Source: Rhodocyclaceae bacterium (lineage in GTDB: Bacteria > Pseudomonadota > Gammaproteobacteria > Burkholderiales > Rhodocyclaceae). From it: DNA of 64,000 nucleotides. Below, piece after piece: positions 21,950 through 64,000 of the stretch (position 1 is the first letter of the stretch; each line of letters starts with the position of its first letter). The DNA lies in NCBI GenBank assembly GCA_006218025.1, contig VBWA01000015.1, positions 1 to 64,000 on the forward strand, written 5' to 3'. The notes under the pieces were generated by a model. That model was not told the DNA's origin, searched no databases, and saw nothing but the letters and a program-made list of their open reading frames with translations. Position numbers and translations under genes: made by a program.

Positions 21950-21963
21950 TTGTTTTGCATCAA
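21950..21963 (+). promoter_or_regulatory. FNR/DNR-type binding site upstream of the respiratory operon
   Basis: TTGTTTTGCATCAA matches 9 of the 10 defined positions of the FNR consensus TTGAT-N4-ATCAA. It lies about 100 bases before the ATG of the first operon gene, a position that suits activation under low oxygen or NO. The interval 21827-22064 contains no gene. Confidence 0.6.
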
Positions 21964-22064: not shown

Positions 22065-22214
22065 ATGGCGAATGACAATGACGACGATGTTCCATTCATG
22101 CAGAAGCTGCTGGACAACCACTTCCTGCTCCTGTTCCTGGGAGTCGCTTCTCCCGGTGTCCTTTACATCCTTTGGGGAATCGTGGACATCATGAGTGTCC
22201 CCCTCGCCAAGTAA
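22065..22214 (+). CDS. Small single-span membrane protein, first gene of the NO-reductase-like operon
   Basis: The 49-residue product starts MANDNDDDVPFMQKLL, has one hydrophobic span (LLLFLGVASPGVLYILWGI) and ends SVPLAK. A GAGGGCAG Shine-Dalgarno sequence lies before the ATG. The acidic N-terminus followed by one helix resembles the small accessory subunits (subunit IV type) found beside CuA-containing heme-copper enzymes. It is 27 bases upstream of the subunit II gene. The assignment is by position and topology only. Confidence 0.7.
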   Translation: MANDNDDDVPFMQKLLDNHFLLLFLGVASPGVLYILWGIVDIMSVPLAK

Positions 22215-22241: not shown

Positions 22242-22796
22242 ATGAGTGCAATCCTGCCGCCTTCAGAGCGGTTGTGGTGGAAGCAGTCGATCAGCAGCCA
22301 GGAATGGGCGTGGATCGGCATCGCCTTCGTCTGGGCCATGATCATGTTTGTCATGATGGTCTATTGGCATATCAACGGTAAGCAGAATCTCTCGAACGAG
22401 GTCTACAAGACGACCACCGAGATGTTCCAGGCCAAGACGGACGCCTTCGTCAAGGAAAACACCATCCGCACCGAAGACAGCCTGGTCAATCCCGACCTGA
22501 AGATGCCGGTGGTCAAGCCGAATGCAAAGGGCGAAGCCTTCCTGCTGGCCCGCCTCTGGTCCTGGTATCCGATTCTGGAACTCGAAGCCGGCAAGACCTA
22601 CAAGATCCACTTGTCCTCGGTCGACTACAACCATGGCTTTTCGCTGCAGCCGACCAACATCAATATCCAGGTCATTCCCGGCTATGAGCATGTGGTCAAG
22701 ATGACCCCGACCAAGGCCGGCACCTACGCCATCGTCTGCAATGAATACTGCGGCATCGGGCACCACACGATGCTTGGCCGTATTTACGTGAAATAA
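22242..22796 (+). CDS. Heme-copper enzyme subunit II with CuA site
   Basis: This subunit accepts electrons from a periplasmic donor through the binuclear CuA centre. It has 184 residues and one N-terminal membrane span (about 22-44), then a cupredoxin domain. All CuA ligands are visible: His in SSVDYNHGFSLQP, then Cys166, Glu168, Cys170, His174 and Met177 in CNEYCGIGHHTMLGRIYV. The single span and short length resemble the subunit II of B-type (ba3-like) oxidases and CuA NO reductases. It lies 12 bases before subunit I. Confidence 0.93.
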   Translation: MSAILPPSERLWWKQSISSQEWAWIGIAFVWAMIMFVMMVYWHINGKQNLSNEVYKTTTEMFQAKTDAFVKENTIRTEDSLVNPDLKMPVVKPNAKGEAFLLARLWSWYPILELEAGKTYKIHLSSVDYNHGFSLQPTNINIQVIPGYEHVVKMTPTKAGTYAIVCNEYCGIGHHTMLGRIYVK

Positions 22797-22808: not shown

Positions 22809-24506
22809 ATGGCAACTACTTACCGTACCTGTCCGCGCACCGGGCTGCAGTTCGACCTCGACGCCGACAAGCTGATGCGCTGGAACGCCGTTGCCGGCGT
22901 ACTCTGGCTGCTGGTGGGCGGCATCACCGCCCTGCTCGTGATCCTGACCCGCTGGCCGGCGATCAAGCTGCTGCCGGCAGACCAGTTCTACCTGATCCTG
23001 ACGGCACACGGCATCGACATGCTGATCCTGTGGATCATCTTCTTCGAAATGGCGGTGCTCTACTTCGCCTCATCGACCCTGCTGAGATGCCGGATTGCCA
23101 CGCCATGGCTGGGCTGGGTCCAGTTCTGGCTGATGGTGGTCGGCGGCATCATGACCAACGTCGCGATCTTCCAGGGCGGCTCGAGCGTGATGTTCACCTC
23201 CTACGTGCCGATGCAGGCCGCGCCGCACTTCTACCTCGGCATCATCCTGTTTGCGGTGGGTGCGCTGATCGGTTGCGGCGTGTTCTTCGGAACGCTGGTG
23301 GTCGCCAAGCGCGAAAAGACCTACACCGGGTCTCTTCCGCTGGTGACCTTCGGCGCCATGACGGCGGCGATCATCGCGGTGTTCACCATCGCCTCGGGCG
23401 CCGCGATCCTGATCCCGACCTTCGCCTGGTCGATGGGCTGGATCAAGGAGATCGACGCCCAGCTGTATCGCATGGTCTGGTGGGCGCTGGGTCACTCCTC
23501 GCAGCAGATCAACGTTGCAGCCCATGTGTCGATCTGGTATCTGGTCGCTGCCGTGGTCTTCGGCGCCAAGCCGCTGTCGGAGAAAGTCTCCCGCTTCGCC
23601 TTCCTGCTCTACATCCTGTTCCTGCAACTGGCCAGCGCGCACCATCTGCTGTCCGACCCGGGCATGAGCGCCGAGTGGAAGGTGCTGAATACCTCCTACT
23701 TCATGTACTTCGCGGTACTGGCCTCGATGATCCACGGCTTCACCGTTCCGGGCGCGATCGAAGCGGCTCAGCGCAAGAAGGGCTTCAACAACGGCCTGTT
23801 CGAGTGGCTGCGCAAGGCACCTTGGGGCAATCCCTTGTTCGCCGGCATGTTCATTTCCCTGGTCGGCTTCGGCTTCATCGGCGGCATCTCCGGTGTCGTG
23901 CTGGGCACCGAGCAGATCAACATGCTGATGCACAACACCTTCTACGTGCCGGGCCACTTCCACGCCACGGTCGTCGTCGGCACCACGCTGGCCTTCATGT
24001 CGATCACCTACCTGCTGGTACCGACCTTGTTCAAGCGTGAAATGCTCTTCCCGAAGCTGTGCCAGATCCAGCCCTACCTCTACGGCCTCAGCATGATCGT
24101 GCTGTCGCTGGTGATGATGGGAGCCGGTACCTTGGGCGTATCCCGCCGTCACTGGGATATGGCTTTCTCGGGTGCGCCGTTCCAGTATGAATGGCCGGGT
24201 GCCGCTTACCTGATGATGGGTCTTACCGGTATCTTCGGTGTGATCGCGGTCATCGGCGGCGGCCTGTGGATCGGCCTGGTGGTACTCTCCCTGCTGTTCG
24301 GCAAGAAGCTCGACGGCGGCGCGACCCACGACAAGCCGGTGCCGATTCCGGACCAGACCGTGGCCGCCAGCGCTGGCCATACCGGCAGCGAAGAGCATGC
24401 CAACGTAGCGGGTACGGTGGTTCTGGCAATGACCTTGCTGGTCTGCTTCGTCCTCTACTACTTCGTGAACTGGAAGTACCTGTCCGAAGTCTGGGGTCTC
24501 AGCTAA
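22809..24506 (+). CDS. Heme-copper superfamily subunit I, NO-reductase-like (eNOR-like)
   Basis: This 565-residue multi-span protein has the heme ligands: His67 in helix II (LTAHGIDML) and His383/His385 in helix X (YVPGHFHATV). The CuB-type ligands are His229 and His278-279 (ASAHHLLSD). The oxidase motif GHPEVY, whose Tyr cross-links to a CuB His, is replaced by GHSSQQINVAAHV, so the catalytic Tyr is missing and Gln residues take its place. From family knowledge, loss of this Tyr with Gln or Glu substitution marks NO reductases. A CuA subunit beside such a protein fits the eNOR group. A C-terminal span (about 535-555) is added after a linker rich in Ala and His. Neighbouring ctaB suggests an O- or A-type heme. 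Confidence 0.88.
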   Translation: MATTYRTCPRTGLQFDLDADKLMRWNAVAGVLWLLVGGITALLVILTRWPAIKLLPADQFYLILTAHGIDMLILWIIFFEMAVLYFASSTLLRCRIATPWLGWVQFWLMVVGGIMTNVAIFQGGSSVMFTSYVPMQAAPHFYLGIILFAVGALIGCGVFFGTLVVAKREKTYTGSLPLVTFGAMTAAIIAVFTIASGAAILIPTFAWSMGWIKEIDAQLYRMVWWALGHSSQQINVAAHVSIWYLVAAVVFGAKPLSEKVSRFAFLLYILFLQLASAHHLLSDPGMSAEWKVLNTSYFMYFAVLASMIHGFTVPGAIEAAQRKKGFNNGLFEWLRKAPWGNPLFAGMFISLVGFGFIGGISGVVLGTEQINMLMHNTFYVPGHFHATVVVGTTLAFMSITYLLVPTLFKREMLFPKLCQIQPYLYGLSMIVLSLVMMGAGTLGVSRRHWDMAFSGAPFQYEWPGAAYLMMGLTGIFGVIAVIGGGLWIGLVVLSLLFGKKLDGGATHDKPVPIPDQTVAASAGHTGSEEHANVAGTVVLAMTLLVCFVLYYFVNWKYLSEVWGLS

Positions 24507-24635: not shown

Positions 24636-25526
24636 ATGGAATCGACGCTGCCCCCCACAAGATCGACCGGCATTCCCTTCCGCGCAATCATGGGCGTGTT
24701 CAAGCTGCGCATCGGCGTCGTCATCACTTTTACCGCCCTGGCCGGCTTGTCGGTCAGCACCGGCCCGAGCCTGACTTTGGTGCAGTTGATCACGCTGACG
24801 CTCGCGGTGCTGGTTTCCTCGGCCAGCGCCGGCGCCTTCAACCAGTATTACGAGCACGACACCGATCCGCTGATGTCGCGCACCCGCAACCGGCCCTTCG
24901 CCACCGGCGAAGTCCGGCACGGTCCGGTCTGGCTGGTGGTCATCTTCGGCCTGATGGCGATCTCGGTCGCCGCCGCCTGGCTCGCGCTGAATGCCTGGAC
25001 CGCGCTGTTCACCTTCCTCGGCGCCTTCTTCTACGCCATCGTCTATACGGTCTGGCTGAAGCGCCGCACCTGGCTCAACATCGTGTTTGGCGGACTGGCC
25101 GGCAGTTGGGCCGTGCTGGCCGGCGCAACGGCGGTTGACCCACAGGTCGGCGCGGTACCGCTGTCCCTCGCCTTCGTGCTCTTCCTGTGGACGCCGCCGC
25201 ACTTCTGGAGTCTGGCGATTGCCTACCGCGACGACTACGCCGCAGCCGGCGTGCCGATGCTGCCCGTGGTGGTCGGTGACCATCGCGCGGCCAAGGCGAT
25301 ATTCGGCAGCACCCTGCTGCTGGTCGCAGCCACATTGCTGCCGCTGGCCTTCGGCCTCGGCGCAATCTACTTTGCCGGCGCAGCTACCGGCGGCTTCCTG
25401 TTCATCCAGAAGGCCTGGCGCCTGGTGCAGAACACCAACCGTGAAACGGCCATGACGTGCTTCCACGCCTCGCTGGCTCAGTTGACTCTGGTACTCACTG
25501 CTGCAATCATCGACGCTCGTTTCTAG
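24636..25526 (+). CDS. ctaB: Protoheme IX farnesyltransferase
   Basis: CtaB (CyoE) adds a farnesyl group to heme b to make heme o, a precursor of heme a. The 296-residue UbiA-family protein has about nine spans and the two Asp-rich motifs: NQYYEHDTDPLMSRT (near residue 72) and YRDDYAAAGVPML (near 201). No ctaA is adjacent, so heme o may be the final cofactor, or heme a may be made elsewhere. It sits in the NO-reductase-like operon, which implies that the heme-copper subunit uses a modified heme. Confidence 0.94.
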   Translation: MESTLPPTRSTGIPFRAIMGVFKLRIGVVITFTALAGLSVSTGPSLTLVQLITLTLAVLVSSASAGAFNQYYEHDTDPLMSRTRNRPFATGEVRHGPVWLVVIFGLMAISVAAAWLALNAWTALFTFLGAFFYAIVYTVWLKRRTWLNIVFGGLAGSWAVLAGATAVDPQVGAVPLSLAFVLFLWTPPHFWSLAIAYRDDYAAAGVPMLPVVVGDHRAAKAIFGSTLLLVAATLLPLAFGLGAIYFAGAATGGFLFIQKAWRLVQNTNRETAMTCFHASLAQLTLVLTAAIIDARF

Positions 25527-25542: not shown

Positions 25543-26421
25543 GTGATCTGTTTTTCACTTCGTGCTGCATTGGCGGCAGCCCTGATCTTTTCGGCGAGTT
25601 GCGTCCTGTCCGCAGACAAGGCCCCGGGACCCAAACTCGTCGAACGTCCCCAGGGCGACCGAACCGGCCTGACGCTCACCACGCTCGACGAAAAGGCAGC
25701 GCTGCAGCTGTCGCAGAGCGTGATCGGCAAACCCGTTGGCGACCATGTACTGCTCGATCGCCAGGAACGACCGACACCGCTGTCCAAGTATCGCGGCAAG
25801 CCGTTGCTGGTCAATTTCGTTTATACGGCCTGCTTCAACGTCTGCCCCACCACCACGAAGAATCTGCAAAAAGCCGTGGAGACAACGGTCAACGTGCTCG
25901 GGGCCGATCGCTTCAACATCGTCAGCATCGGCTTCAACCAGCCCTTCGATTCACCCCAGGCAATGAAGATCTTTGCCACCCAGTACGGCATCGACCTGCC
26001 CAACTGGGAATTCCTCAGTCCGGCGGCAGCCATCGTCGACGAGCTGACGCAAAATTTCGGCTTCAGCTATGTCGCGACGACCGCCGGCTTCGACCACATG
26101 AACCAGGTCACCATCGTCGATGCCAATGGCAAAATATTCAGACAGGTGTATGGCGAAAAATTCACCGCCGAAGATCTGGCGGAACCGCTCAAGGCGATGA
26201 TCACCGGCGCTCCCATTCCGCCGCAGACCGGCACGCTGGAGGAGATCGCCGACCGGATCAGAATACTCTGCTCGGTCTACGATCCCGTCAGCGGGAAATA
26301 CCGCACCAACTATGCGCTGTATTTCGAGATCGCCGGTTTCATCAGCTTCATGTTCTTCATGGCCTGGGTGGCATGGAGCTTCATGAGAAGTCGCCGCAAG
26401 GACAAGATTCAATCGGGTTGA
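25543..26421 (+). CDS. SCO1/SenC-type copper chaperone with extra C-terminal membrane helix
   Basis: SCO proteins deliver copper to CuA centres. The protein has an N-terminal signal or anchor (start GTG 25543), a thioredoxin fold with the copper-binding CFNVCP motif (CxxxC) and a His in GFDHMNQVTIVD. At 292 residues it is longer than typical SCO (about 200). A C-terminal extension ends in a second hydrophobic span (EIAGFISFMFFMAWVAWSF) followed by RSRRK. It is in the operon with the CuA subunit, so maturation of that subunit is the likely task. Confidence 0.9.
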   Translation: MICFSLRAALAAALIFSASCVLSADKAPGPKLVERPQGDRTGLTLTTLDEKAALQLSQSVIGKPVGDHVLLDRQERPTPLSKYRGKPLLVNFVYTACFNVCPTTTKNLQKAVETTVNVLGADRFNIVSIGFNQPFDSPQAMKIFATQYGIDLPNWEFLSPAAAIVDELTQNFGFSYVATTAGFDHMNQVTIVDANGKIFRQVYGEKFTAEDLAEPLKAMITGAPIPPQTGTLEEIADRIRILCSVYDPVSGKYRTNYALYFEIAGFISFMFFMAWVAWSFMRSRRKDKIQSG

Positions 26422-26451: not shown

Positions 26452-26500
26452 CATATCATCAACCGCTAATAGTCGGCCTTCGTCAACTAGCACCGACGTG

Positions 26501-28087
26501 ATGGAATCTCCCAACGTGAGCTCGCACGCTTCCTTGCGCGGCAACGCGCAAACCCTCTTCGAACGCATCGAGAATTTTCTCGATGCGTCCTTTGGCGGCG
26601 CCGACAATCCCCTGCGCCATCTGGGCGCGCTGGGTCTGTATTTCCTCTGGATACTCGTCGCTACCGGGCTTTATCTCTATACGGTGCTGGATACCAGCAT
26701 CGAAGGCGTCTACAGCTCGATCGGCTGGCTGTCGCAGGAGCAGTGGTATCTCGGCGGCATACTGCGCAGCCTGCATCGCTACGCCTCGGATGCCTTCGTC
26801 CTGGTCATGATGCTGCATCTGCTGCGGGAATGGGCTTTCGGCCGCTACTACGGCTTCCGTCTCTATTCATGGGTGACCGGAGTGCCGCTGATCTGGTTCG
26901 CCTATATCTCGGGCATCGGCGGCTACTGGATCGTCTGGGACCGCCTGGCGCAGTTTTCCGCCATCGCCACCACCGAACTGCTCGACTGGCTACCGATTTT
27001 CAGCTCGCCGGCAGTGCGCAACTTTCTCGCTCCCGACTCGATCAGCGACCGCTTCTTTACCGTGGTCATCTTCATCCACATCGCAATGCCGCTGATGCTG
27101 ATTCTCGGTCTCTGGGCTCATGTCAATCGCATCAGCCGGGTGGACTACCTGCCGTCACGACGAGTCATGCTGGCGACCCTGGCCAGCTTTCTCGTACTGG
27201 CCCTGATCAAGCCGGCGTTGAGCGATGCGCCCGCCAATCTGGCCCTGGCGCCGGCCGAAATCAGGCTGGACTGGTTCATCCTGTTCATCCATCCGCTGAC
27301 CAACATCACCTCGCCGGCGGCTGTCTGGGCATTCGTCTTCGGCACCACGATCCTGCTGTTCGCGCTGCCCTTTCTGCCGCACCCGAAGGCTCAGCCGATC
27401 GCCGTGGTCGACGCTGCCAATTGCAACGGCTGCAGCCGCTGCCACGCCGATTGCCCCTACGAGGCCGTCACCATGGCGATTCATCCCCACAAACCGGGCC
27501 ACAAGATTGCCGTCGTCGATCCCGACCTGTGTGCCAGCTGCGGAATTTGCGCCGGTTCCTGCCCTTCATCGACGCCCTTCCGCAGCCAGCAAAGGCTGGT
27601 GACCGGCATCGACATGCCGCAGCAACCGGTCGATGTGATGCGTCAGCAACTCGAAGCCCAGCTGGCGAAGCTCGGCGGCACGACAAAGCTGGTCGTCTTC
27701 GGCTGCGACAAGGGCGCCGACGTACGCGGCCTGGCCGCAACGGACACCGCCGCAATCAGCCTGATATGCACCGGCATGCTGCCACCTTCCTTCATCGAAT
27801 ACGCGCTGCGCAGCGGCGTCGATGGCATCGTGGTGACGGGCTGCCGCGAGGGCGGCTGCGATTTCCGCCTCGGCATGGCATGGACGCAGGAGCGCCTTGC
27901 CCATCAGCGCGAACCGCATTTGCGCGGCCTCGTACCGCAGGACAGGCTGCGAGTGGTCCATGCATCCCGCAGCGAGGGCGAAAAACTCGCCGCGGCCGTG
28001 AAGGAATTCAAAGCCCGACTCGCAACACAACTGGTCGCCAGCAATAGACCTCCCGCCTATTCCCGGAGAAAAATCCATCATGGCTAA
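26501..28087 (+). CDS. Cytochrome b - two [4Fe-4S] ferredoxin - MvhD-like fusion protein
   Basis: The 528-residue protein begins with a cytochrome b/b6-type N-terminal domain (residues 15-290). It has paired His residues on two helices (RSLHRYASDAF...MMLHLLREW and FIHIAMPLM...LWAHV), predicting two b hemes and quinone contact. Two ferredoxin motifs follow: CNGCSRCHADCP from residue 308 and CASCGICAGSCP from 344. The last part (about 395-500) resembles the hydrogenase [2Fe-2S] subunit MvhD/FrhD, with VVFGCDKGAD, ICTGMLPPSFIEYALRSGVDG and GCREGGCDFRLG. MvhD passes electrons between hydrogenase and heterodisulfide reductase in methanogens. The fusion could move electrons between quinones and a soluble low-potential carrier. 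It overlaps the next gene by 8 bases. I know no characterised protein with exactly this role. Confidence 0.88.
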   Translation: MESPNVSSHASLRGNAQTLFERIENFLDASFGGADNPLRHLGALGLYFLWILVATGLYLYTVLDTSIEGVYSSIGWLSQEQWYLGGILRSLHRYASDAFVLVMMLHLLREWAFGRYYGFRLYSWVTGVPLIWFAYISGIGGYWIVWDRLAQFSAIATTELLDWLPIFSSPAVRNFLAPDSISDRFFTVVIFIHIAMPLMLILGLWAHVNRISRVDYLPSRRVMLATLASFLVLALIKPALSDAPANLALAPAEIRLDWFILFIHPLTNITSPAAVWAFVFGTTILLFALPFLPHPKAQPIAVVDAANCNGCSRCHADCPYEAVTMAIHPHKPGHKIAVVDPDLCASCGICAGSCPSSTPFRSQQRLVTGIDMPQQPVDVMRQQLEAQLAKLGGTTKLVVFGCDKGADVRGLAATDTAAISLICTGMLPPSFIEYALRSGVDGIVVTGCREGGCDFRLGMAWTQERLAHQREPHLRGLVPQDRLRVVHASRSEGEKLAAAVKEFKARLATQLVASNRPPAYSRRKIHHG

Positions 28088-28577
28088 ACCCGCCGCCATC
28101 GTCGGCCAGATCATCCTTTATGGCGCGTTTGCAGCCTTCATCGGCTACTTCGCGACCGCGCCCACCTACAAGCAGATACCCGACGACGTCGCGCTGATCA
28201 AGCTCTCGATGAGCCATCTGGGCGGCCGCGAGTGCCGCAAGCGCACCGCCGAAGAACTGGCCAAGATGCCGCCCAACATGCGCGCGCCCCTGGACTGTCC
28301 GCGCGGGCGTTCCGACATCAAGCTGGTGCTCGAGCTCGACGGCAAGCCGATGTTCGAAACCGTGATGCATCCCACAGGGCTTTCCAAGGACGGCGTCTCG
28401 ACCGTCTACAAGCGCTTCGAGGTCAAGGCCGGCACCTACCAGCTCGGCATCAAGATGAACGACAACCTGGTCAATCCCGGCTTCAACCATGTCAAGGAAG
28501 CGCAAGTCACGCTGAAGCCGGCACAGGTGCTGGTGATTGACTTCAATCCGGACAAGGGCGGCCTGTTTTTCCAATGA
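28080..28577 (+). CDS. Conserved membrane-anchored protein of unknown function
   Basis: The 165-residue product has one N-terminal span (IILYGAFAAFIGYFATAP) and a periplasmic domain with two Cys (GGRECRKRT and APLDCPRG). The domain is beta-rich (DIKLVLELDGKPMFE, GTYQLGIKMND) and is preceded by a helical part. It overlaps the cytochrome b-ferredoxin fusion by 8 bases and is 64 bases from the second cytochrome b fusion, so it is probably a subunit or assembly factor of that complex. I do not recognise its family. Confidence 0.7.
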   Translation: MAKPAAIVGQIILYGAFAAFIGYFATAPTYKQIPDDVALIKLSMSHLGGRECRKRTAEELAKMPPNMRAPLDCPRGRSDIKLVLELDGKPMFETVMHPTGLSKDGVSTVYKRFEVKAGTYQLGIKMNDNLVNPGFNHVKEAQVTLKPAQVLVIDFNPDKGGLFFQ

Positions 28578-28641
28578 GAAATCACCGGAAAATCGCAAAT
28601 ACACCCGACCGAACCTCCATCCTTCCGCGCGGATACAGACA

Positions 28642-30555
28642 ATGCTGACCCTCCTCCAAAAACTCGTGCGCTGGTTCTTCATGCGTGCGGAGAACCTGTT
28701 CAACCACGCCTTCGGCGAAAAGATCAATCCCTTCTACCATCTCGGGACCATCAGCTTCTGGCAATTCTGGCTGCTGATAGGCACCGGGCTTTACCTCTAC
28801 ATCTTCGCCGATACCGCCGTGCATGATGCCTACGAATCCGTGGAGCGCATCACCCACGAGCAGTGGTGGGCCGGCGGCATCATGCGCAGCATTCACCGCT
28901 ACGCCACGGACGGCATGATCCTGACCATGCTGCTGCACATGCTGCGGCACTTCGCCTATGACCGCTACCGCGGCTTCCGCTGGTTTTCCTGGGCCACCGG
29001 CATCGCCCTGATCTGGCTGATATACATCTCCGGCCTCAACGGCTTCATGCTGGTGTGGGACAAACTGGCGCAGTTCGTCGTCGTCGCCACCGCCGAGTGG
29101 TTCGATGTGCTGCCGATGTTCAACGGCACCCTGATCCGCAATTTTATCTACCAGGAAAACGTCACCAGCCGGCTGTTCACCCTGCTCGCCTTCATCCATC
29201 TAGGCGCGCCGCTGATCGCCGGCGTCCTCGCCTGGGTGCATGTGCAGCGCGTGCCGCGCGCCCACGTCAACCCGCCGCGCGAGATCGCGATTGCCTTCAC
29301 CCTGATGTTCGTCGTGCTGGCGCTGGTGAAGCCGGTGGTCAGCCAGGGCGGCGAAGCCGACATGCTGGTGGTGCCGACCAACATCCAGTTCGACTGGTTC
29401 CAGATGCCGGTGCTGGCGCTGGTTTATGTCGTCAATCCGCTGTATCTGTGGTTCGGCATTGTCGGCTTGTCCACCTTGCTGTTCCTCGCCCCATGGCTGC
29501 CGCCCAAGCGCATGGGGTCGGCCCCGGCCGAAGCCGTCGTCACCTTCCACCCCGACCACCGCACCGTCGCCATCCGCTTCGACGAAACCCTGCTCGATGC
29601 CGGCCTGCGCCATGACATCAACCTGCCTTACGAATGCCGTAACGGCGGCTGCGGCCAGTGCAAATGCACGGTGCTGAGCGGCAATGTCGATCCCGGCCTG
29701 TATCAGCCGAGCGCGCTGTCGGCCGAGGAGCGCGCGGCGGGCAAGGTCCTGCTGTGCTGCGCCACCGCACTGGGCGACGTCGAGATCGAGTACGCAGCAG
29801 CAGCGGTGCCCAGTGCGGTTCGCCAGTACACCGCCTACGTGGTGAACATGGAAAAGCTGACCCACGACGTCATGCGCGTCATGCTCAAGCTGCCGCACGG
29901 GCAACAGATTCCGTTCAAGGCCGGGCAGTACATCAACATCATTCTCGACGACGGCCAGCGCCGCGCCTTCTCCTTCGCCAATCCGCCCCATCAGCCCGAC
30001 CTGATCGAACTGCAGATTCGCCTGATGCCGGGTGGCCGCTATACCACCCATGTGTTCGAACACATGAAGGAAGACGATGCCGTGCAGTTCGAAGGCCCGC
30101 TGGGTGATTTCTCATTGCGCGAATCCGAGCGTCCGATCGTGTTCGTTGCCGGCGCCACCGGTTTCGCGCCGGTCAAGAGCATGGTCGAGGATGCCTTCCA
30201 TCGCGGCCTCAAGCGCCCCATCCATCTCTACTGGGGCGTGCGCCAGCTGGCCGACCTGTATCTGCCGGACCTGCCGCAACGATGGGCGCGGGATCACGCG
30301 AACTTTCACTTCATCCCGGTGCTCTCCGATGCCGCGCCAGAAGACAACTGGAGCGGCCGCACCGGGCTGGTGCACGAAGCCATCCTCGAAGACTTCCCCG
30401 ACCTCAGGGGCCACGAGATCTACGCCTGCGGCTCGGTGAAAATGGTCGAGGCGATTTTCCCGTCGCTGAAGAATCAGGGCGCCGAGGAAGGTATGTGCTT
30501 CTCCGATGCCTTCAATATTTCGGCGCGCTCGATGGCGTTCCAGCCGAAACAGTAG
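28642..30555 (+). CDS. Cytochrome b - plant-type [2Fe-2S] ferredoxin - FAD/NAD(P)H reductase fusion
   Basis: ATG 28642 gives 637 residues. The first about 290 form a cytochrome b N-terminal domain with bis-His helices (RSIHRYATDGMILTMLLHML; AFIHLGAPLI...WVHV), similar to the fusion encoded upstream. A [2Fe-2S] ferredoxin follows, with CRNGGCGQCKC from Cys332 and a fourth Cys in LLCCATALG. The last 240 residues are a ferredoxin-NADP reductase-type flavoprotein: RAFSFANPP (FAD), GGRYTTHVF, FVAGATGFAPVKSM (NAD(P)) and YACGSVKMVEA. The order suggests electron flow from NAD(P)H through FAD and [2Fe-2S] to b hemes and quinone, or the reverse. It belongs to the NO-reductase-like operon. Confidence 0.9.
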   Translation: MLTLLQKLVRWFFMRAENLFNHAFGEKINPFYHLGTISFWQFWLLIGTGLYLYIFADTAVHDAYESVERITHEQWWAGGIMRSIHRYATDGMILTMLLHMLRHFAYDRYRGFRWFSWATGIALIWLIYISGLNGFMLVWDKLAQFVVVATAEWFDVLPMFNGTLIRNFIYQENVTSRLFTLLAFIHLGAPLIAGVLAWVHVQRVPRAHVNPPREIAIAFTLMFVVLALVKPVVSQGGEADMLVVPTNIQFDWFQMPVLALVYVVNPLYLWFGIVGLSTLLFLAPWLPPKRMGSAPAEAVVTFHPDHRTVAIRFDETLLDAGLRHDINLPYECRNGGCGQCKCTVLSGNVDPGLYQPSALSAEERAAGKVLLCCATALGDVEIEYAAAAVPSAVRQYTAYVVNMEKLTHDVMRVMLKLPHGQQIPFKAGQYINIILDDGQRRAFSFANPPHQPDLIELQIRLMPGGRYTTHVFEHMKEDDAVQFEGPLGDFSLRESERPIVFVAGATGFAPVKSMVEDAFHRGLKRPIHLYWGVRQLADLYLPDLPQRWARDHANFHFIPVLSDAAPEDNWSGRTGLVHEAILEDFPDLRGHEIYACGSVKMVEAIFPSLKNQGAEEGMCFSDAFNISARSMAFQPKQ

Positions 30556-30659: not shown

Positions 30660-30768
30660 GGTGAACCTGCAATACTCACGGTAGCGTAAGTTCCATCCTG
30701 CGGTGACGCCTCTTAGCCCCGCGGAAATCAGCAGCCCGTCCAGAGGCCGCGAGAATTTGGAGAGACAC

Positions 30769-32289
30769 ATGCCGTCGCAGAACGACATCGACCGAAAGGA
30801 CGTACTGAGGACGCTTCCCCTGTTTGCAGGACTCATTCCGGAACTCCTTGACGAACTGACGCGCGGATCGCACAACGCCACGTTTCAACGAGGTCAGGCC
30901 GTTTACCGGCCCGGCGACAGCGCTGGCGCGATGTATGTCGTGCTGGCGGGCCAAGTCAAACTGGCCCTGTCGTCCAATCGCGGGCAGGAGAAGGTCATCG
31001 ATGTCATTGAAGCGGGGCGATCTTTTGGCGAAGCCGAGCTTTTTGGCACTCACTCCTATCTTGCAGGTGCCCAGGCAGTGAAGCCGACACAGCTGCTGTG
31101 CATTGGTGGGGAGCACGTTCGCCGCATCATGACGCTGGACCCGCGCGTCACGGAGCGCATCATCAATGGGCTGGCGCATCGCCAGATTCAGATGGAAGCC
31201 GAACTGGCGGCGAGCCATTTCTGTTCCGGCAGCCAACGACTGCTCGAATTCTTTCTGTGGCTGGCGGGTCCGGATCGCGCCCCGGCCGGCGACACGCAGG
31301 TGACCCTGAACATCAGCAAATGCCTGCTGGCCTCGCGCTTGGACATGCAACCGGAAACCCTGTCGCGCGCCTTGCGCGATCTGACCGAAGCGGGCTTGAT
31401 TGCCGTCGACAAATACCACATCAGCCTGAGGAACGCCAAAATCGCGCGCTATCTCGCCGATGAACCCTCGGCACGGTCGATCATCCTGCCGGAGCGCCTG
31501 CGCCTGCCGCATGCCAAAGGTAGTGGCCATGCGGTGGCGAGCTCCGCATCCGGCGCCGTAGAACAGGGCGCCGATACCAGACCGTTCCGCGACGCGATCA
31601 ACAAGGCCGGCCGCCAGCGCATGTTGTCGCAGCGCATGGCGAAGTCATGGCTGATGCTGGAGCGGGGCGTCATGTCCCGACGGGCACGGTTGATCCTGAG
31701 GCAATCGGCGGACATGTTCGACAGCCAAATGGCGGAGCTTGACGCTTTGCCCGGCAGCGCCGAGAGCCGCACGGCTTGCACCGAACTCGGCGAGGTCTGG
31801 CGCCCCTATCGGGCATTGCTGGTTTCGCAGCCCGGCCGGGACACAGCGCAAGAACTGTTCAGCATGAACGAGGCCGTGCTGGCGGCGGCAGACAAACTGA
31901 CGCTCAGCTTCGAAAAGGCCGATGGCACTCCGCAAGGCAAGCTGGTCAATCTGGCCGGGCGGGAACGCATGCTGTCGCAGCGCGCCGCCAAGTTCTTCAT
32001 GTTCCGCAGCATGGGCATCGAGGTGTCCGCCTCCCGGGCCGAACTGAAGCGTACCCATGATGAATTCTCGACCGCACTGGTCGAGTTTGCGGCGGCGACA
32101 CGGGGCCAGCCGAAGATCAAGGACGAACTGGAGAAAGTGGCACGACACTGGAACACATTGCAGTCCGCGATGACAAGTCATGATCGCCTGCCCTTCGCCC
32201 CCATCGCGCGCAAGGTATTTGCCACCAGCGAAAATCTGCTGCAGCGCATGGATACAGCCGTGAACCTGTATGCAGGGCTACCCGCCTGA
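30769..32289 (+). CDS. Crp/Fnr-family regulator fused to two PilJ/NarX-like sensory domains
   Basis: ATG 30769 gives 506 residues. Residues 10-125 are a cyclic-nucleotide-binding-type sensor fold (GQAVYRPGDSAGAMYVVLAGQVKL), and 140-225 a Crp winged helix-turn-helix (LASRLDMQPETLSRALRDL). The N-terminal Cys cluster of oxygen-sensing FNR is absent. The C-terminal half holds two copies of the helical PilJ N-terminal-type domain, with the motifs NKAGRQRMLSQRMAKS (residue 278) and NLAGRERMLSQRAAKFF (residue 394). They resemble the nitrate-binding P-box of NarX/NarQ. In those proteins the domain is periplasmic, but here no membrane segment exists, so the sensor would be cytoplasmic. A cytoplasmic nitrate or nitrite response controlling the operon upstream is a plausible reading. 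Confidence 0.9.
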   Translation: MPSQNDIDRKDVLRTLPLFAGLIPELLDELTRGSHNATFQRGQAVYRPGDSAGAMYVVLAGQVKLALSSNRGQEKVIDVIEAGRSFGEAELFGTHSYLAGAQAVKPTQLLCIGGEHVRRIMTLDPRVTERIINGLAHRQIQMEAELAASHFCSGSQRLLEFFLWLAGPDRAPAGDTQVTLNISKCLLASRLDMQPETLSRALRDLTEAGLIAVDKYHISLRNAKIARYLADEPSARSIILPERLRLPHAKGSGHAVASSASGAVEQGADTRPFRDAINKAGRQRMLSQRMAKSWLMLERGVMSRRARLILRQSADMFDSQMAELDALPGSAESRTACTELGEVWRPYRALLVSQPGRDTAQELFSMNEAVLAAADKLTLSFEKADGTPQGKLVNLAGRERMLSQRAAKFFMFRSMGIEVSASRAELKRTHDEFSTALVEFAAATRGQPKIKDELEKVARHWNTLQSAMTSHDRLPFAPIARKVFATSENLLQRMDTAVNLYAGLPA

Positions 32290-34241: not shown

Positions 34242-35585
34242 CTAGCGCTGCTGTCTGCGCTGCCAGCCGGTCATCGCCTTGAGGCAGACCAGCACGAACA
34301 TGATGCCGCCGATGACGGCGATCAGGCCGCCCAAGCCCATCATGCCCATGCCAATTTTCTGCGGCAGCGTGGTCAGGGCCTGCTCGGCGCCGGCCACCTT
34401 GCGCTGCACGCCGTAGCCGCCGGACCAGGCCAGGCCGAGGATATGAATCAGTTGGCCGCCGCCATAGACGTACGGCTGCCAGCGCGCCATGCGCCCCTCC
34501 ACCACGCCGAAACCCAGTTGCGGCAGCAGCACGTAGGCCAGCCCCATGAAGGCCAGCGTCACGCCGACCGTGGAGCCGTGATAGTGCGCCGGGATCACCA
34601 CGTTGACGCCCTGGATCATGTAGGCCAGCACGCCGCCCACGGCGAACAGCGAGAACGAGGCGATGAAGGCCGACTTCGCCGGATGCGCCGCAGACTTGCG
34701 CGTGGCCCACAGACTGAGGAAGCCGACCAGGATCAGCGGCGCCATGTAGGGATGGCCCCAGATCATCAGCTTGGCGAAGAGTTCCATGTGCGGCAGCTCG
34801 CCCGCCGGAATCGTGAAGTAGATCGCCGGCACCACCAGCAGCGGCAGCGCGGCAATCCAGAACATGGCCGAGAGCGCACGCGGCGAAGCGACTGCCGGCT
34901 GGCCGAGGTGTGCCGCGATCCACAGCCAGGCCACCACCATCAGCAGTGCATGCTGGAACTGCAGCGTATGACCGCCGCCCCAGAACAGCACTTCGAAATA
35001 AATCTTTTCCTCGATCCGCGGCACCACGAGCCAAGACCAGACGAAGGCCGCCAGCGCGAGAAAGCCCGCTACCGCTCCGACGAAGGCGCCGAGTTGCAGC
35101 GGCGCGCCGAAGAAAGGACGCGGCCAGGTGGTAATCAGCGCGCGCAGCACGGCGAGGCTGAAACCCGCGCCGCAAATCCACAGCGAGGCGTAAAAGGTGT
35201 TTTGCTGCAACACCGGGATGTAGTTGTTGAGCACCGGCACGGCGCCCGGCAGGAAGGGCGAAACCGTCATCACCGCGGTGCCGACCGCAGCCAGCGCGAA
35301 ACCGGCCCAGCCCAGCCACGCCACGCCGCCGCGGCCAACGGCACTCCAGATCACGGCGGCAAACGCCATGAACCAAATTGCCACGGAAAGGTCCACGTGG
35401 ACCACCAACGCGGAGCGGAAGAAGTCCTTCAGCGGGAATACGTCCTGGATGCCCGGCGTGCGCGACAGCACCAGCAGGATGGCGAGCAGGCCGGAACCGA
35501 TCAGCGCCATCAGCCCCAACCATAACCATGCCCGGGCAAGCGTTTTTGGCGCCCCTTCGGCAACCGTGACGATATGCGAATTCAC
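34242..35585 (-). CDS. Single-subunit heme-copper superfamily protein, gNOR-like
   Basis: The 447-residue protein has about twelve spans and superfamily heme ligands: His63 (VVHVDLSVAIW) and His334/His336 (IPAHYHGSTVGVTLAFMG). Helix VI reads FWGGGHTLQFQH (His206): the oxidase Tyr position is Phe210 and a Gln209 precedes it. The adjacent His-His pair of helix VII is not found; instead a region with GELPHMELF is present. These changes argue against O2 reduction and toward a noncanonical NO reductase such as the gNOR/sNOR groups, from family knowledge. The start is GTG 35585. A SCO gene diverges from it across 86 bases, implying linked copper supply. Confidence 0.8.
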   Translation of the reverse strand: MNSHIVTVAEGAPKTLARAWLWLGLMALIGSGLLAILLVLSRTPGIQDVFPLKDFFRSALVVHVDLSVAIWFMAFAAVIWSAVGRGGVAWLGWAGFALAAVGTAVMTVSPFLPGAVPVLNNYIPVLQQNTFYASLWICGAGFSLAVLRALITTWPRPFFGAPLQLGAFVGAVAGFLALAAFVWSWLVVPRIEEKIYFEVLFWGGGHTLQFQHALLMVVAWLWIAAHLGQPAVASPRALSAMFWIAALPLLVVPAIYFTIPAGELPHMELFAKLMIWGHPYMAPLILVGFLSLWATRKSAAHPAKSAFIASFSLFAVGGVLAYMIQGVNVVIPAHYHGSTVGVTLAFMGLAYVLLPQLGFGVVEGRMARWQPYVYGGGQLIHILGLAWSGGYGVQRKVAGAEQALTTLPQKIGMGMMGLGGLIAVIGGIMFVLVCLKAMTGWQRRQQR

Positions 35586-43691: not shown

Positions 43692-45320
43692 TCAGTGGCT
43701 CGTTCCCTCAGAGCGCGTGATCTTGTTGTAGAGGTTGTACTTGCCCACCGGCTTGTCCATCGGGATGCGCTTGACCTCCTTGAAGGTGGCGGCGTCGAAC
43801 ACGATCAGCGCGCCGCCGTCGGCCTTGCGCTCCCACAGGCTGGCCAGCACGTACTTGCCGTCGCGGGTGAATTCGACATGGGCCAGGGTCTTGCCCGGAT
43901 TGGTCTTCACCTCGGCGACTTTCTCCAGCGTGCGTTTGTCGATCACCTGCAGCGTGTCCTTGCCCTTCGACATCATCGAATCGGTCCAGGCATAGGGCGT
44001 GTTCTCGTGGCTGCGCATGAAGAATCCGGGACCGAGGGTGGGGATGGTCTTGATCGTGCTCCAGTCCTTCATGTCGATCACCGTGATTACCCCCTCCTTG
44101 AGATTCGGCGTGGCCATCACCATGCGATCCTGCGCGCCCTGCGGCGGGCGGTAGTTCCAGGTGATGCCGGAGCCGAGATGCGGCATGCCGGGCAGCTTGA
44201 GGTCGGCGATCTTCTTGCGCACGTCGAGGTTGACCACCTGGCCCTTGCCGGCTTCGCGGCTGGAGCCCATCAGCTCGGAGTAGTTCTGGGTGAAGAAGAA
44301 ATCGTCGAGCGGTTCGGACAGGAAGCTGCGGCGCGGATTGAGGAAGCCGGGGATGAAGCTGCCTTCCTTGTACTTGAAGTCGTGCACCATACCGACGGGA
44401 ATGTCGTCGGCCTTCGGGTTGTAGCTGATCTCCCAGACCTCGGGCACGTCCTTCAGCGCGGCGACGAAGCTCTGGCGCGGTGCCGCGTCATACACTGCGG
44501 AGACGCGCGAGCTTTCCTTGCCGTCCTTGCTGACGACCTGATGCACCTTGAGCAGGTTCAGGTCGGCATCGAGCAGCACCAGCGTGTGCGGCAGGTAGTT
44601 GGCCACCGCGAGGTATTTGCCGTCGCCCGAGACGGCGACATTGCGCGTGTTGATGCCGGCGCGGATTTCGGCCACCACCTGAAGATTCCAGATGTCGAAC
44701 TTGGTGATCCAGCCGTCGCGCGAAGCGAAGAACACATAGCGTCCGTCGGGCGTGAACTTCGGCCCGCCGTGCAGGGCGTAGCGGCTGGGGAAACGATGGA
44801 TCGGCTCCAGCTTGTCGCCGTCGAGCACCGTGACATTGTGGTCGCCGGTCTCGACCACGATGAACAGGTTCATCATGTCCACGCCCTTGAAGATCTCGGC
44901 GGGTTTCGCCGGCAGGCTGCCCGTGGCGAAAGAAACGATGCGCGAGGCCTTGATGTCGGCTTCGGTAAAAGTCGGCGCTGGCGACACGGCGGTGTAGATG
45001 TAATCGGCCAGCGCGGCGATCTCGTCCTTGGCCAGACGATCCGTAAAACCCAGCATCTGGGTTGCCGCGCGGCCTTCGGTGATGGTCTTGATGGCTTCCG
45101 GCTTGCGCAGGCGCGACAGGCTCTCCGGCAGCAGTGCCGGGCCGGTCACGCCGAGCCGGCCGGGACCATGGCAGACGGCGCAATGCTGCTGAAAAAGTGC
45201 AGGGGCGTCGGCAGCGGCGGCGGAAAGTGCGACAAGGGCCAGCAGTGCGGGAACAGCCCGCGCTGCGCGGCGAATGCTGGAACAACGGCTTGCGAACTCA
45301 TGCCTCATGCGATGGGTCAT
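43692..45320 (-). CDS. nirN: Cytochrome cd1-like dehydrogenase NirN of heme d1 synthesis
   Basis: NirN is a periplasmic cytochrome that completes heme d1 by dehydrogenating its precursor. The 542-residue protein has a signal peptide, a cytochrome c heme site FQQHCAVCHG and a long d1-binding beta-propeller: NLFIVVETGDHNVTVLDGD, YALHGGPKFTPDGRYVFFASRDGW, GINTRNVAVSGDGKYLAVANYLPH, SRVSAVYDAAPRQSFV and MRSHENTPYAW. GPALLPESLSRLRKPEAI after the heme is NirN-like and not NirS-like. A copy of the dispersed repeat (44967-44991) encodes TAVSPAPTF between the two domains. ATG 45308 is an alternative start. NirS itself is not in the window. Confidence 0.9.
   Translation of the reverse strand: MTHRMRHEFASRCSSIRRAARAVPALLALVALSAAAADAPALFQQHCAVCHGPGRLGVTGPALLPESLSRLRKPEAIKTITEGRAATQMLGFTDRLAKDEIAALADYIYTAVSPAPTFTEADIKASRIVSFATGSLPAKPAEIFKGVDMMNLFIVVETGDHNVTVLDGDKLEPIHRFPSRYALHGGPKFTPDGRYVFFASRDGWITKFDIWNLQVVAEIRAGINTRNVAVSGDGKYLAVANYLPHTLVLLDADLNLLKVHQVVSKDGKESSRVSAVYDAAPRQSFVAALKDVPEVWEISYNPKADDIPVGMVHDFKYKEGSFIPGFLNPRRSFLSEPLDDFFFTQNYSELMGSSREAGKGQVVNLDVRKKIADLKLPGMPHLGSGITWNYRPPQGAQDRMVMATPNLKEGVITVIDMKDWSTIKTIPTLGPGFFMRSHENTPYAWTDSMMSKGKDTLQVIDKRTLEKVAEVKTNPGKTLAHVEFTRDGKYVLASLWERKADGGALIVFDAATFKEVKRIPMDKPVGKYNLYNKITRSEGTSH
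44967..44991 (+). repeat. Dispersed micro-repeat inside nirN
   Basis: AAAAGTCGGCGCTGGCGA then CACGGCG lies in the nirN reading frame, where the gene's strand encodes VSPAPTF in the linker between the heme c and d1 domains. Relatives have a proline-rich linker here too, so replacement and insertion cannot be told apart by eye. Confidence 0.65.
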
Positions 45321-45512: not shown

Positions 45513-46004
45513 TCAGAAGCGGCCGTCGTCGAGTTTCAGCGGCAGATCCTTCGTCACCTGCTCGAAGCTGAGGATGCGCTTGCCCTTGTGGTCCTTGAGG
45601 AAATCGGCCGCGTCCTCTTTGTTCGCCAGAGGTACGAACTCGTGGCCCATCGGGCCGAGCACGTCGGAACCGATGACGTAGAGCGCCTTGCGCGCATCGA
45701 CCGGCTGCAGGTTGTAGAAATCGGTCACCCGGATTGCCGCCATGTCCTCGCGCTTGTGGCCCGCCGCGTACTTCGCCGGCTCGAACCACATCTTGAACAT
45801 GTCCTTGGCGCCGTCGAAATGATGCGCATGGCCGTCCTTGTAGACAATGGTCGCCACCCAGTTGGGATATTTGGCCACCAGCATGCCGCACACCGGGCAA
45901 AGATCCTTCGGCCCCGGCTTCGGCAACTTCGCCACGCCCTGCGCCAGCGCCGCCGCAGGCAGCAGCGACGAGAGCAGGAACACGAGCAGTGCGCGGCGAT
46001 TCAC
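45513..46004 (-). CDS. nosL: NosL-type copper chaperone
   Basis: NosL binds Cu(I) and helps assemble the CuZ and CuA centres of nitrous oxide reductase in the periplasm. The 163-residue product has a signal peptide (LLPAAALAQG) and the NosL metal motif LCPVCGMLVAKYPNW. A domain with AHHFDGAKDMFKMWFEP and YVIGSDVLGPMGHEFVPL follows. It lies 7 bases after a second NosL-like gene on the same strand. Classic NosL is a lipoprotein; this one lacks the Cys lipobox. Confidence 0.9.
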   Translation of the reverse strand: MNRRALLVFLLSSLLPAAALAQGVAKLPKPGPKDLCPVCGMLVAKYPNWVATIVYKDGHAHHFDGAKDMFKMWFEPAKYAAGHKREDMAAIRVTDFYNLQPVDARKALYVIGSDVLGPMGHEFVPLANKEDAADFLKDHKGKRILSFEQVTKDLPLKLDDGRF

Positions 46005-63267: not shown

Positions 63268-63281
63268 TTGACCCAGGTCAA
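63268..63281 (-). promoter_or_regulatory. FNR/DNR-like site between nirJ and downstream genes
   Basis: TTGACCCAGGTCAA is a symmetric variant of the FNR consensus (TTGAC-N4-GTCAA). It overlaps the nirJ stop codon and is about 105 bases upstream of the 60-residue gene on the minus strand, a position that would suit a DNR/NNR-type NO-responsive regulator. Confidence 0.5.
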
Positions 63282-64000
63282 GCGACGCCGATCTCCTCGT
63301 CGCTGAGGTAGCAGCCGGGATCTTCCGACCAGGGATCGCCGGTCAGTTGCTGGGCGCGCACCCGCGTGTTGCCGCCGCAGATGTCGAAATGGGCACAGAC
63401 GCCGCAGCGACCGCTCACCCTGCGCGGATGCGCCTTGAGCCCGGCCATCAGCGGGTCGGAGGTGTCCATCCAGATATCGCCGAAGGAACGCTCGCGGACA
63501 TTGCCCAGAGTGTGATGCCACCACATCGTGTCGGGATGGACATTGCCCAGATTGTCGATGTTGGCGACGTTGATGCCGCTGGAATTGCCGCCCCACTGCG
63601 CCAGCTTCTGCCGGATGTGTTCGGCCTTTTCCGGGAAACGTTTCTGCAGCCAGTAGAGCAGATAGACGCCATCGGCATCGTTGTTGCCGGTGGTGAATTC
63701 CTTGACCAAGCCACGTTGTTGGTATTCCCAACAGGTGTCGAACAGCAGGTCCATCGCGTTGCGCGTCATCTGGTGCAGCGCATCGTCCTTGCGATTCTTG
63801 TTGCCGCGCCCGGCGTAGTTGAGGTGCGAGAAATAGAAGCGGTCGATGCCTTCGTCCTCGACCAGCCTGAGCAGGCCGGGCAGATCCTGAAAGTTGTCCT
63901 GCGTCATCGTGTAGCGCACACCGACCTTGAGCCCCGCCTCGCGGCAAAGGCGGATGCCCGCGAGCGAGAGATCGAAGGCGCCCTTCATGCGACGGAACTT
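63278..64000 (-). CDS. nirJ: Heme d1 biosynthesis radical SAM protein NirJ (partial)
   Basis: NirJ removes the propionate side chains of 12,18-didecarboxysiroheme during heme d1 synthesis. Only the C-terminal about 240 residues are in the window; the gene continues beyond base 64000. Visible are TMTQDNFQDLPGLLRLVEDE, FYFSHLNYAGRGNKNRKDDA, GNNDADGVYLLYWLQKRFPE, PDTMWWHHTLGNVRERSFGDIW in segments, and the auxiliary iron-sulfur Cys cluster (SGRCGVCAHFDICGGNTR, ending DPGCYLSDEE). With nirN at 43.7 kb it shows that the organism makes heme d1 for a cd1 nitrite reductase. Confidence 0.93.
   Translation of the reverse strand, partial: KFRRMKGAFDLSLAGIRLCREAGLKVGVRYTMTQDNFQDLPGLLRLVEDEGIDRFYFSHLNYAGRGNKNRKDDALHQMTRNAMDLLFDTCWEYQQRGLVKEFTTGNNDADGVYLLYWLQKRFPEKAEHIRQKLAQWGGNSSGINVANIDNLGNVHPDTMWWHHTLGNVRERSFGDIWMDTSDPLMAGLKAHPRRVSGRCGVCAHFDICGGNTRVRAQQLTGDPWSEDPGCYLSDEEIGVA

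Follow-up and report, generated by a model that had tools for sequence, protein, structure and literature searches.

Why should two cytochrome b proteins with entirely different electron-transfer arms be encoded directly behind the genes of a heme-copper enzyme resembling a nitric oxide (NO) reductase? The question is raised by a 64,000-nucleotide stretch of Rhodocyclaceae bacterium DNA (assembly GCA_006218025.1, contig VBWA01000015.1, positions 1 to 64,000; hereafter the window), in which the plus strand from 22.0 to 30.6 kb forms one operon-like run: a 49-amino-acid microprotein, subunits II and I of the heme-copper enzyme, a heme O synthase, a SCO protein, a first cytochrome b fusion (M), a small protein (X165) and a second cytochrome b fusion (F). 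We found that the link between cytochromes of this kind and the NO reductase eNOR is real and nearly absolute in the sampled Pseudomonadota genomes. We propose, with our confidence evenly divided, that the run encodes a cytochrome b-based electron-transfer module that operates without a Rieske protein and is dedicated to eNOR. The run is laid out as follows, in window positions.

21950–21963, plus strand: FNR/DNR-type box TTGTTTTGCATCAA, 5′ of the operon, with one mismatch to TTGATNNNNATCAA, which we take to be the consensus of such boxes
22065–22214, plus strand: 49-amino-acid single-helix microprotein with an LDN motif, directly 5′ of subunit II
22242–22796, plus strand: predicted eNOR subunit II, a cupredoxin (PF00116) with CuA-type ligands
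22809–24506, plus strand: predicted eNOR subunit I (PF00115), heme and CuB histidines aligned, glutamine at the cross-linked tyrosine position
24636–25526, plus strand: heme O synthase (CtaB/CyoE; TIGR01473, above cut-off)
25543–26421, plus strand: SCO/SenC protein (PF02630), a probable CuA assembly factor, with CxxxC and His185 in 106 of 106 rows
26498–28087, plus strand: M, cytochrome b (two hemes), two [4Fe-4S] clusters and an MvhD/FlpD domain with four cysteines (Pfam, alignments)
28080–28577, plus strand: X165, one predicted membrane helix and a beta-sandwich (alignment, structure model)
28642–30555, plus strand: F, cytochrome b (two hemes), [2Fe-2S] ferredoxin and FAD/NAD(P) reductase (Pfam, alignments)

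What kind of enzyme stands at the head of this run? Compared with a ba3-type oxidase, subunit I keeps the histidines that bind heme and CuB, and its cross-linked tyrosine is replaced by glutamine. Glutamine occupies this position in all 100 subunit I matches (99 with GHSSQQ and one with GHSAQQ, a few genomes being represented twice), which were collected with a pattern that left the position free. In the table of PMC8756737, glutamine at this diagnostic site is the signature of eNOR, and sNOR or another NOR is ruled out by it. By its sequence, the heme-copper enzyme is an eNOR, with a predicted NO reductase activity; the sequence-only reading had called the operon NO-reductase-like, and this signature, with the cupredoxin subunit II alongside, bears it out. 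In subunit II, residues H131, C166, E168, C170, H174 and M177, presumably the CuA-type ligand set, are each present in at least 99% of 102 rows. The microprotein, which has no NCBIfam match, is a probable small eNOR subunit; its motif, a loose one, occurs 5′ of coxII in 93 of 100 near-duplicate-free loci.

How closely do the cytochromes follow eNOR? Among 150 genomes of the family, 33 carry the cytochrome and 30 carry eNOR, with both in 30, the cytochrome only in three and eNOR only in none; among 398 genomes of the phylum Pseudomonadota, the cytochrome is found in 34 and eNOR in 30, with both in 29, the cytochrome only in five and eNOR only in one (the window's own genome is counted in both samples, and the Fisher tests on these counts ignore kinship). 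Independence of the fusions from the heme-copper genes had been named at the outset as what would refute the link; the opposite was found, the cytochrome being present in every eNOR genome of the family (30 of 30) and in 29 of the 30 of the phylum. The contig of the sole genome with eNOR only (G218) stops just after sco. In the 29 phylum genomes with both, the loci are adjacent in 15, 16–21 kb apart on the same contig in two and on different contigs in 12. Four split loci (G198, G266, G285 and G306) are found at the end of a contig or close to it, so that some of the 12 are perhaps assembly breaks; in G183 and G194, the two loci each lie well inside long contigs. A scan of titled genomes, covering the best 80 of 577 confirmed relatives (a few of these records repeating G-numbered genomes), found eNOR subunit I in 67, the cytochrome part of M in 71 and X165 in 74 within the fetched stretch. 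Of the 13 of these 80 loci that lacked eNOR, nine had their genomes searched (L115, L121, L129 and L149 were left out), and seven of the nine carry eNOR elsewhere; all four Accumulibacter genomes with an eNOR-less cytochrome locus have eNOR elsewhere. The association with NO reduction is better supported than at first reading, and we consider it probable that the cytochrome module is the partner of eNOR.

A partnership universal to eNOR was also considered and is unsupported, eNOR-like plasmid loci being mostly without the cytochrome. At a threshold of 1e-30, 32 plasmid records have an eNOR-like subunit I (not every one was checked for the glutamine), and the cytochrome, of the M type, occurs only in that of Defluviimonas. 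On a Thermus thermophilus plasmid (L187), the eNOR-like genes adjoin genes for an Rrf2-family regulator and a DUF542 protein, near a nitrite reductase, with no cytochrome b fusion.

Are M and F complete redox proteins? The M reading frame (529 amino acids) opens with GTG at 26498, with an ATG at 26501, and matches Cytochrome_B (PF00033), a Fer4 dicluster and FlpD/MvhD (PF02662; 59 bits against a cut-off of 22.3); F matches Cytochrome_B, Fer2, FAD_binding_6 and NAD_binding_1. The F reading frame opens at TTG 28537, and its homologues align from near ATG 28642, which is the likely start; F residues are numbered here from codon 28639, as in the alignments. The cytochrome b halves of M and F are 42% identical, and the heme ligands H86, H100, H187 and H201 are present in every distinct sequence (111 of 111 for M and 103 of 103 for F). 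Two related di-heme halves with different tails had been claimed from the window alone, and the Pfam domains, this identity and these invariant ligands agree with that claim. The histidines form two pairs separated by 13 residues, as at the bis-histidine sites of cytochromes bc1 and b6f; Asp252 (109 of 111 M; 103 of 103 F) and Trp253 (111 of 111 M; 102 of 103 F) sit where bc1 carries the quinol-site PEWY, in an Asp-Trp-[Phe/Tyr]-like motif, and the profile alignment runs through residues 19–311 of yeast cytochrome b. Unlike bc1 and b6f, M and F end one helix past this motif and continue as soluble arms, and no Rieske or cytochrome c1/f gene was found among the ten genes scanned in the run. The 12 cluster cysteines of M, including the four of the FlpD/MvhD domain, are invariant in 111 of 111 sequences; in F, the four ferredoxin cysteines and the residues of RxxS and GxTGxAP, which we take to be the FAD and NAD motifs, are invariant in 103 of 103. 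Judged by these residues, M and F are complete redox proteins with their iron-sulfur and flavin arms intact. Three further cytochrome b matches have no assigned tail, namely L066, which ends inside the gene, L151 and the tail-less L061. Chance fusion or misassembly was rejected because the architectures and the order of the genes are found again in many other contigs, several being of chromosome size.

These residues also bear on the idea that the proteins carry no respiratory electrons at all, and that their iron-sulfur and flavin arms instead keep eNOR or its metal centers reduced, or sense NO, in maturation, repair or sensing. The SCO protein and heme O synthase among the neighbors would suit such a role, as would an X165 with no redox ligand beyond a cysteine pair, and iron-sulfur clusters react with NO. 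However, the four heme histidines are fully conserved, together with the 12 cysteines of M or the four cysteines and FAD/NAD residues of F, which argues for sustained electron flow; we regard this alternative as very improbable.

The arms themselves have known relatives. The Fer2-FAD-NAD part of F resembles BenC/MmoC-type reductases (204 bits to BenC, below the BenC cut-off) but is fused to a cytochrome b. In its working only, F may presumably be likened to NADPH oxidase, where a cytoplasmic NAD(P)H/FAD part feeds two membrane hemes; the membrane part of F belongs to another family (PF00033), and F has an additional [2Fe-2S] domain. In M, a ferredoxin is followed by FlpD/MvhD, the order found at the end of HdrA2, whereas in contrast to HdrA2/MvhD, Qmo and the MvhD-HdrABC of acetogens the MvhD/FlpD domain is fused to cytochrome b. 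MvhD is a membrane linker in Sporomusa ovata, according to the part of PMC9430772 that concerns it. No HdrA flavoprotein was found among the ten genes scanned in the run. Contig C139 of the same genome has a separate FlpD-bearing HdrA/QmoB-like set with HdrB/HdrC-like reading frames (G000:C139:3884-4261, L189; names assigned by eye), which perhaps belongs to sulfur metabolism.

What is the small protein between the fusions? X165 (165 amino acids) has no match in Pfam or NCBIfam under the limits applied, and its predicted membrane helix is in keeping with the unknown anchored protein that had been noted there. A model built from 93 sequences gives one membrane helix and a beta-sandwich at a mean predicted local distance difference test (pLDDT) score of 93.8; an earlier single-sequence model was of low quality (pLDDT 58). 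Cys52 and Cys73 are found in 98% of 121 sequences, and Arg68, Arg75 and Arg77 in all. A substitute for a Rieske protein or cupredoxin was considered and rejected, since there is no ligand pattern and only the two cysteines and invariant arginine, aspartate, glycine and proline residues are prominent. The fold search gave no convincing match, only weak or general beta-sandwich ones (best Foldseek E value 0.023); the best VIA-align result (Z 8.5) was the luminal part of HGSNAT over 94 residues, with a root-mean-square deviation of 3.0, which we do not take as kinship. When neighbors were clustered at 12 loci, four of them with an unlinked cytochrome, X165 was the sole constant partner of the unlinked cytochromes. 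We tentatively regard it as probably a docking or assembly factor.

How might two related cytochromes have arisen? In a quickly built tree of 99 cytochrome b domains sharing less than 80% mutual identity, 37 F rows and the tail-less L061 fall on one fully supported branch, and the tail type changes once. A single copy is present in 28 of the 34 cytochrome-bearing phylum genomes; the ten of these whose loci were fetched, outside the class of the window, all have the M form. The two fusions are thus not the fixed set for which they had been taken, one family member having a tail-less cytochrome b besides. That member, G017 (the tail-less L061), is without an M copy; its cytochrome, a descendant of F that has no tail, is retained beside X165 and eNOR, which suggests that the cytochrome b core itself goes with eNOR. 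Three genomes in family f39 each carry a pair of M copies of their own. Because the single-copy genomes have the M form and the tree has one tail change, it looks as though M and X165 form the common module, the NAD(P)H arm having been gained once and the doubling having occurred at least twice. Doubling and tail exchange may point to a dimeric cytochrome b in which each half is able to specialize. The gene order F, X165, M is seen in ten loci (L117, L120, L122, L123, L128, L129, L130, L139, L140 and L144), and in four of these (L120, L123, L129 and L130) a second X165 follows M, as if there were one X165 per cytochrome b.

How could such a module serve eNOR? By the topology of bc1, the arms would emerge on the cytoplasmic side, close to heme bH. 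Heme bL, the quinone pocket and X165 would lie on the periplasmic side, as would the CuA domain of eNOR. Most likely, electrons would be delivered by NAD(P)H via the F arm, by a partner of ferredoxin or flavoprotein type via the M arm, by quinol, or by more than one of these; they would travel over both hemes toward the periplasm and be handed to eNOR, either directly or by way of the quinone pocket, and X165 would help in docking or assembly. Since bc1-type cytochrome b proteins function as dimers, M and F may pair as a heterodimer where both exist. The sequence-only reading had proposed a link among NAD(P)H, quinone, a low-potential carrier and NO reduction, and this anatomy, with its ligands intact, could connect NAD(P)H, a second cytoplasmic carrier, a quinone pocket and NO reduction. 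On a net flow of electrons toward eNOR, our confidence falls just short of even.

Several observations weigh against a dedicated electron-transfer module. First, eight genomes have the cytochrome without a detected eNOR (G004, G077, G114, G270, G286, G294, G376 and G426); six of the eight are less than 90% complete, G294 has 6% contamination, and the contig of G114 ends just past ctaB. Likewise, no eNOR was found in the genomes of two titled cytochrome carriers, L152 and L078. Second, no cytochrome adjoins the eNOR-like genes in the plasmid neighborhoods of Thermus, Thermomicrobium and Haloarcula (the search covered plasmids and not chromosomes), which suggests that eNOR can work without the module. 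Third, at the PEWY position the Asp-Trp is kept with the proline lost and the glutamate changed to aspartate, and since no Rieske-like acceptor was found, the exit of electrons at the periplasmic side is unexplained. Finally, the CuA-type site of subunit II could take electrons from cytochrome c, and the co-occurrence could stem from shared anaerobic regulation.

Shared anaerobic regulation is also how the tie to eNOR would be explained if F had the role proposed for it in Accumulibacter. F-type orthologues occur over their full length at 77–80% identity in Accumulibacter-labeled loci among the matches listed. F appears to be the Accumulibacter protein called an 'unusual cytochrome b/b6' or 'quinol reductase', going by this orthology and by the domain description of that protein, presumably a cytochrome b with NAD(P)/flavin domains, rather than by comparison with the published accession. 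In the passages concerned, PMC4930944 ('novel quinol reductase') and PMC9041414 ('unusual cytochrome b/b6') propose that it lets succinate dehydrogenase run forward anaerobically; both trace the proposal, which as far as they show rests on genome evidence, to Garcia Martin et al. 2006, with Skennerton et al. 2015 also cited, and PMC2289847 mentions a 'novel cytochrome' in the context of the anaerobic tricarboxylic acid (TCA) cycle of Accumulibacter. These passages mention neither eNOR nor an M partner. The claim that there is no precedent is accordingly wrong in part, since the Accumulibacter literature knows F in another role; no title or abstract found, within a limited library and set of terms, mentions a fusion of cytochrome b with MvhD in connection with an NO reductase.

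According to the published proposal, extended to M, F would be a quinol:NAD(P)+ oxidoreductase that takes quinol electrons from succinate dehydrogenase and reduces NAD(P)+, while M would reduce a ferredoxin-type carrier, so that the TCA cycle could run without an external acceptor. The cytochrome b fold, the motif resembling a quinone pocket and the intact NAD(P)/FAD arm are all consistent with this. However, electron transfer from quinol to NAD(P)+ is uphill and would require a driving force; of the genomes that carry the gene, 30 of 33 in the family and 29 of 34 in the phylum also have eNOR, even where the two are unlinked; and among the matches listed it is found in many betaproteobacteria not labeled Accumulibacter, the closest titled relatives (88–92% identity in F) being labeled Sulfuritalea, Sulfurisoma, Rhodocyclales and other betaproteobacteria. 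Zeimonas arvi and Simplicispira lacusdiani are also named among these matches. We consider this explanation unlikely. Because the F gene travels with an NO reductase, its role in Accumulibacter may be secondary or linked to denitrification.

The driving force wanting in the published quinol reductase would be supplied by quinol bifurcation, in which one electron would pass to the CuA of eNOR, standing in for a Rieske protein, while the second would run via bL and bH and reduce NAD(P)+ or a ferredoxin-type carrier. NO reduction would thus pay for low-potential electrons. The two-heme chain and the Asp-Trp pocket (109 of 111 M; 102–103 of 103 F) suit this scheme, as does the coupling of low-potential cytoplasmic arms to a high-potential enzyme. 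Against this, no Rieske-type partner was found, the motif of the pocket has changed, the arms take the place of the bc1 helices beyond helix F, and the tail-less form of G017 would have no low-potential outlet. We judge bifurcation distinctly unlikely, and a shade more so its fullest form, a Rieske-free cytochrome b heterodimer sending high-potential electrons to the CuA of eNOR and low-potential ones to both NAD(P)+ and a ferredoxin-type carrier. If that form were true, denitrifiers including Accumulibacter could make NAD(P)H or reduced ferredoxin at the expense of NO reduction.

We therefore return to the dedicated module of eNOR. This enzyme family produces nitrous oxide (N2O), its electron supply in these bacteria appears unsettled, and a conserved module tied to it is a concrete candidate donor. 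A protein cited as key to anaerobic redox balance in phosphate-removing sludge is thereby recast as a companion of an NO reductase, and interest lies mainly in the conflict between the published anaerobic-TCA role and this near-obligate partnership, since knock-out experiments and enzyme assays should come out differently under the two readings. The module (cytochrome b, X165 and the eNOR microprotein) would also be useful for recognizing sources of N2O when genomes are annotated.

In what setting does the run stand? The window is part of a denitrification region. A cytochrome d1-type match, one of four in this genome, lies within it and is among the following genes.

43692–45320, minus strand: cytochrome d1-type protein (PF02239)
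45513–46004, minus strand: protein resembling NosL (by eye)
63278–63988, minus strand: NirJ-type radical SAM protein, below the model cut-off as delimited here

In two other genomes (loci L171 and L178), a NirJ gene (above cut-off) and a cytochrome d1 gene adjoin eNOR. Matches to PF00115 in the window's own genome comprise an aa3-type and a cbb3-type oxidase (NCBIfam, above cut-off), eNOR, a divergent relative at 34242–35585 and one match below the cut-off, and no cNOR or qNOR was recognized in the genome by this model. Because no cNOR or qNOR was recognized and cytochrome d1 and NirJ genes are present, eNOR is likely to be the NO reductase of a nitrite-reducing denitrifier. As for regulation, the 420 bases 5′ of coxII contain an FNR/DNR-type box, with one mismatch allowed, in 53 of 100 near-duplicate-free loci, whereas dinucleotide-shuffled sequences give a mean of 1.7; a box alone cannot separate FNR from DNR/NNR regulators.

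Two further genes lie downstream of the run.

30703–32289, plus strand: Crp-family regulator fused to two PilJ-type domains (Pfam), directly 3′ of the F gene
34242–35585, minus strand: divergent relative of heme-copper subunit I (PF00115, just above cut-off)

The latter has no sequence match in the PDB. In an alignment of 81 sequences, His 63, 206, 334, 336 and 381 are invariant, and the His-His pair expected for CuB is absent among the conserved residues. It is possibly a further member of the set. In gene maps of other genomes, it sits inside the eNOR gene run, after X165. The Crp-PilJ regulator gene adjoins the operon in only some relatives.

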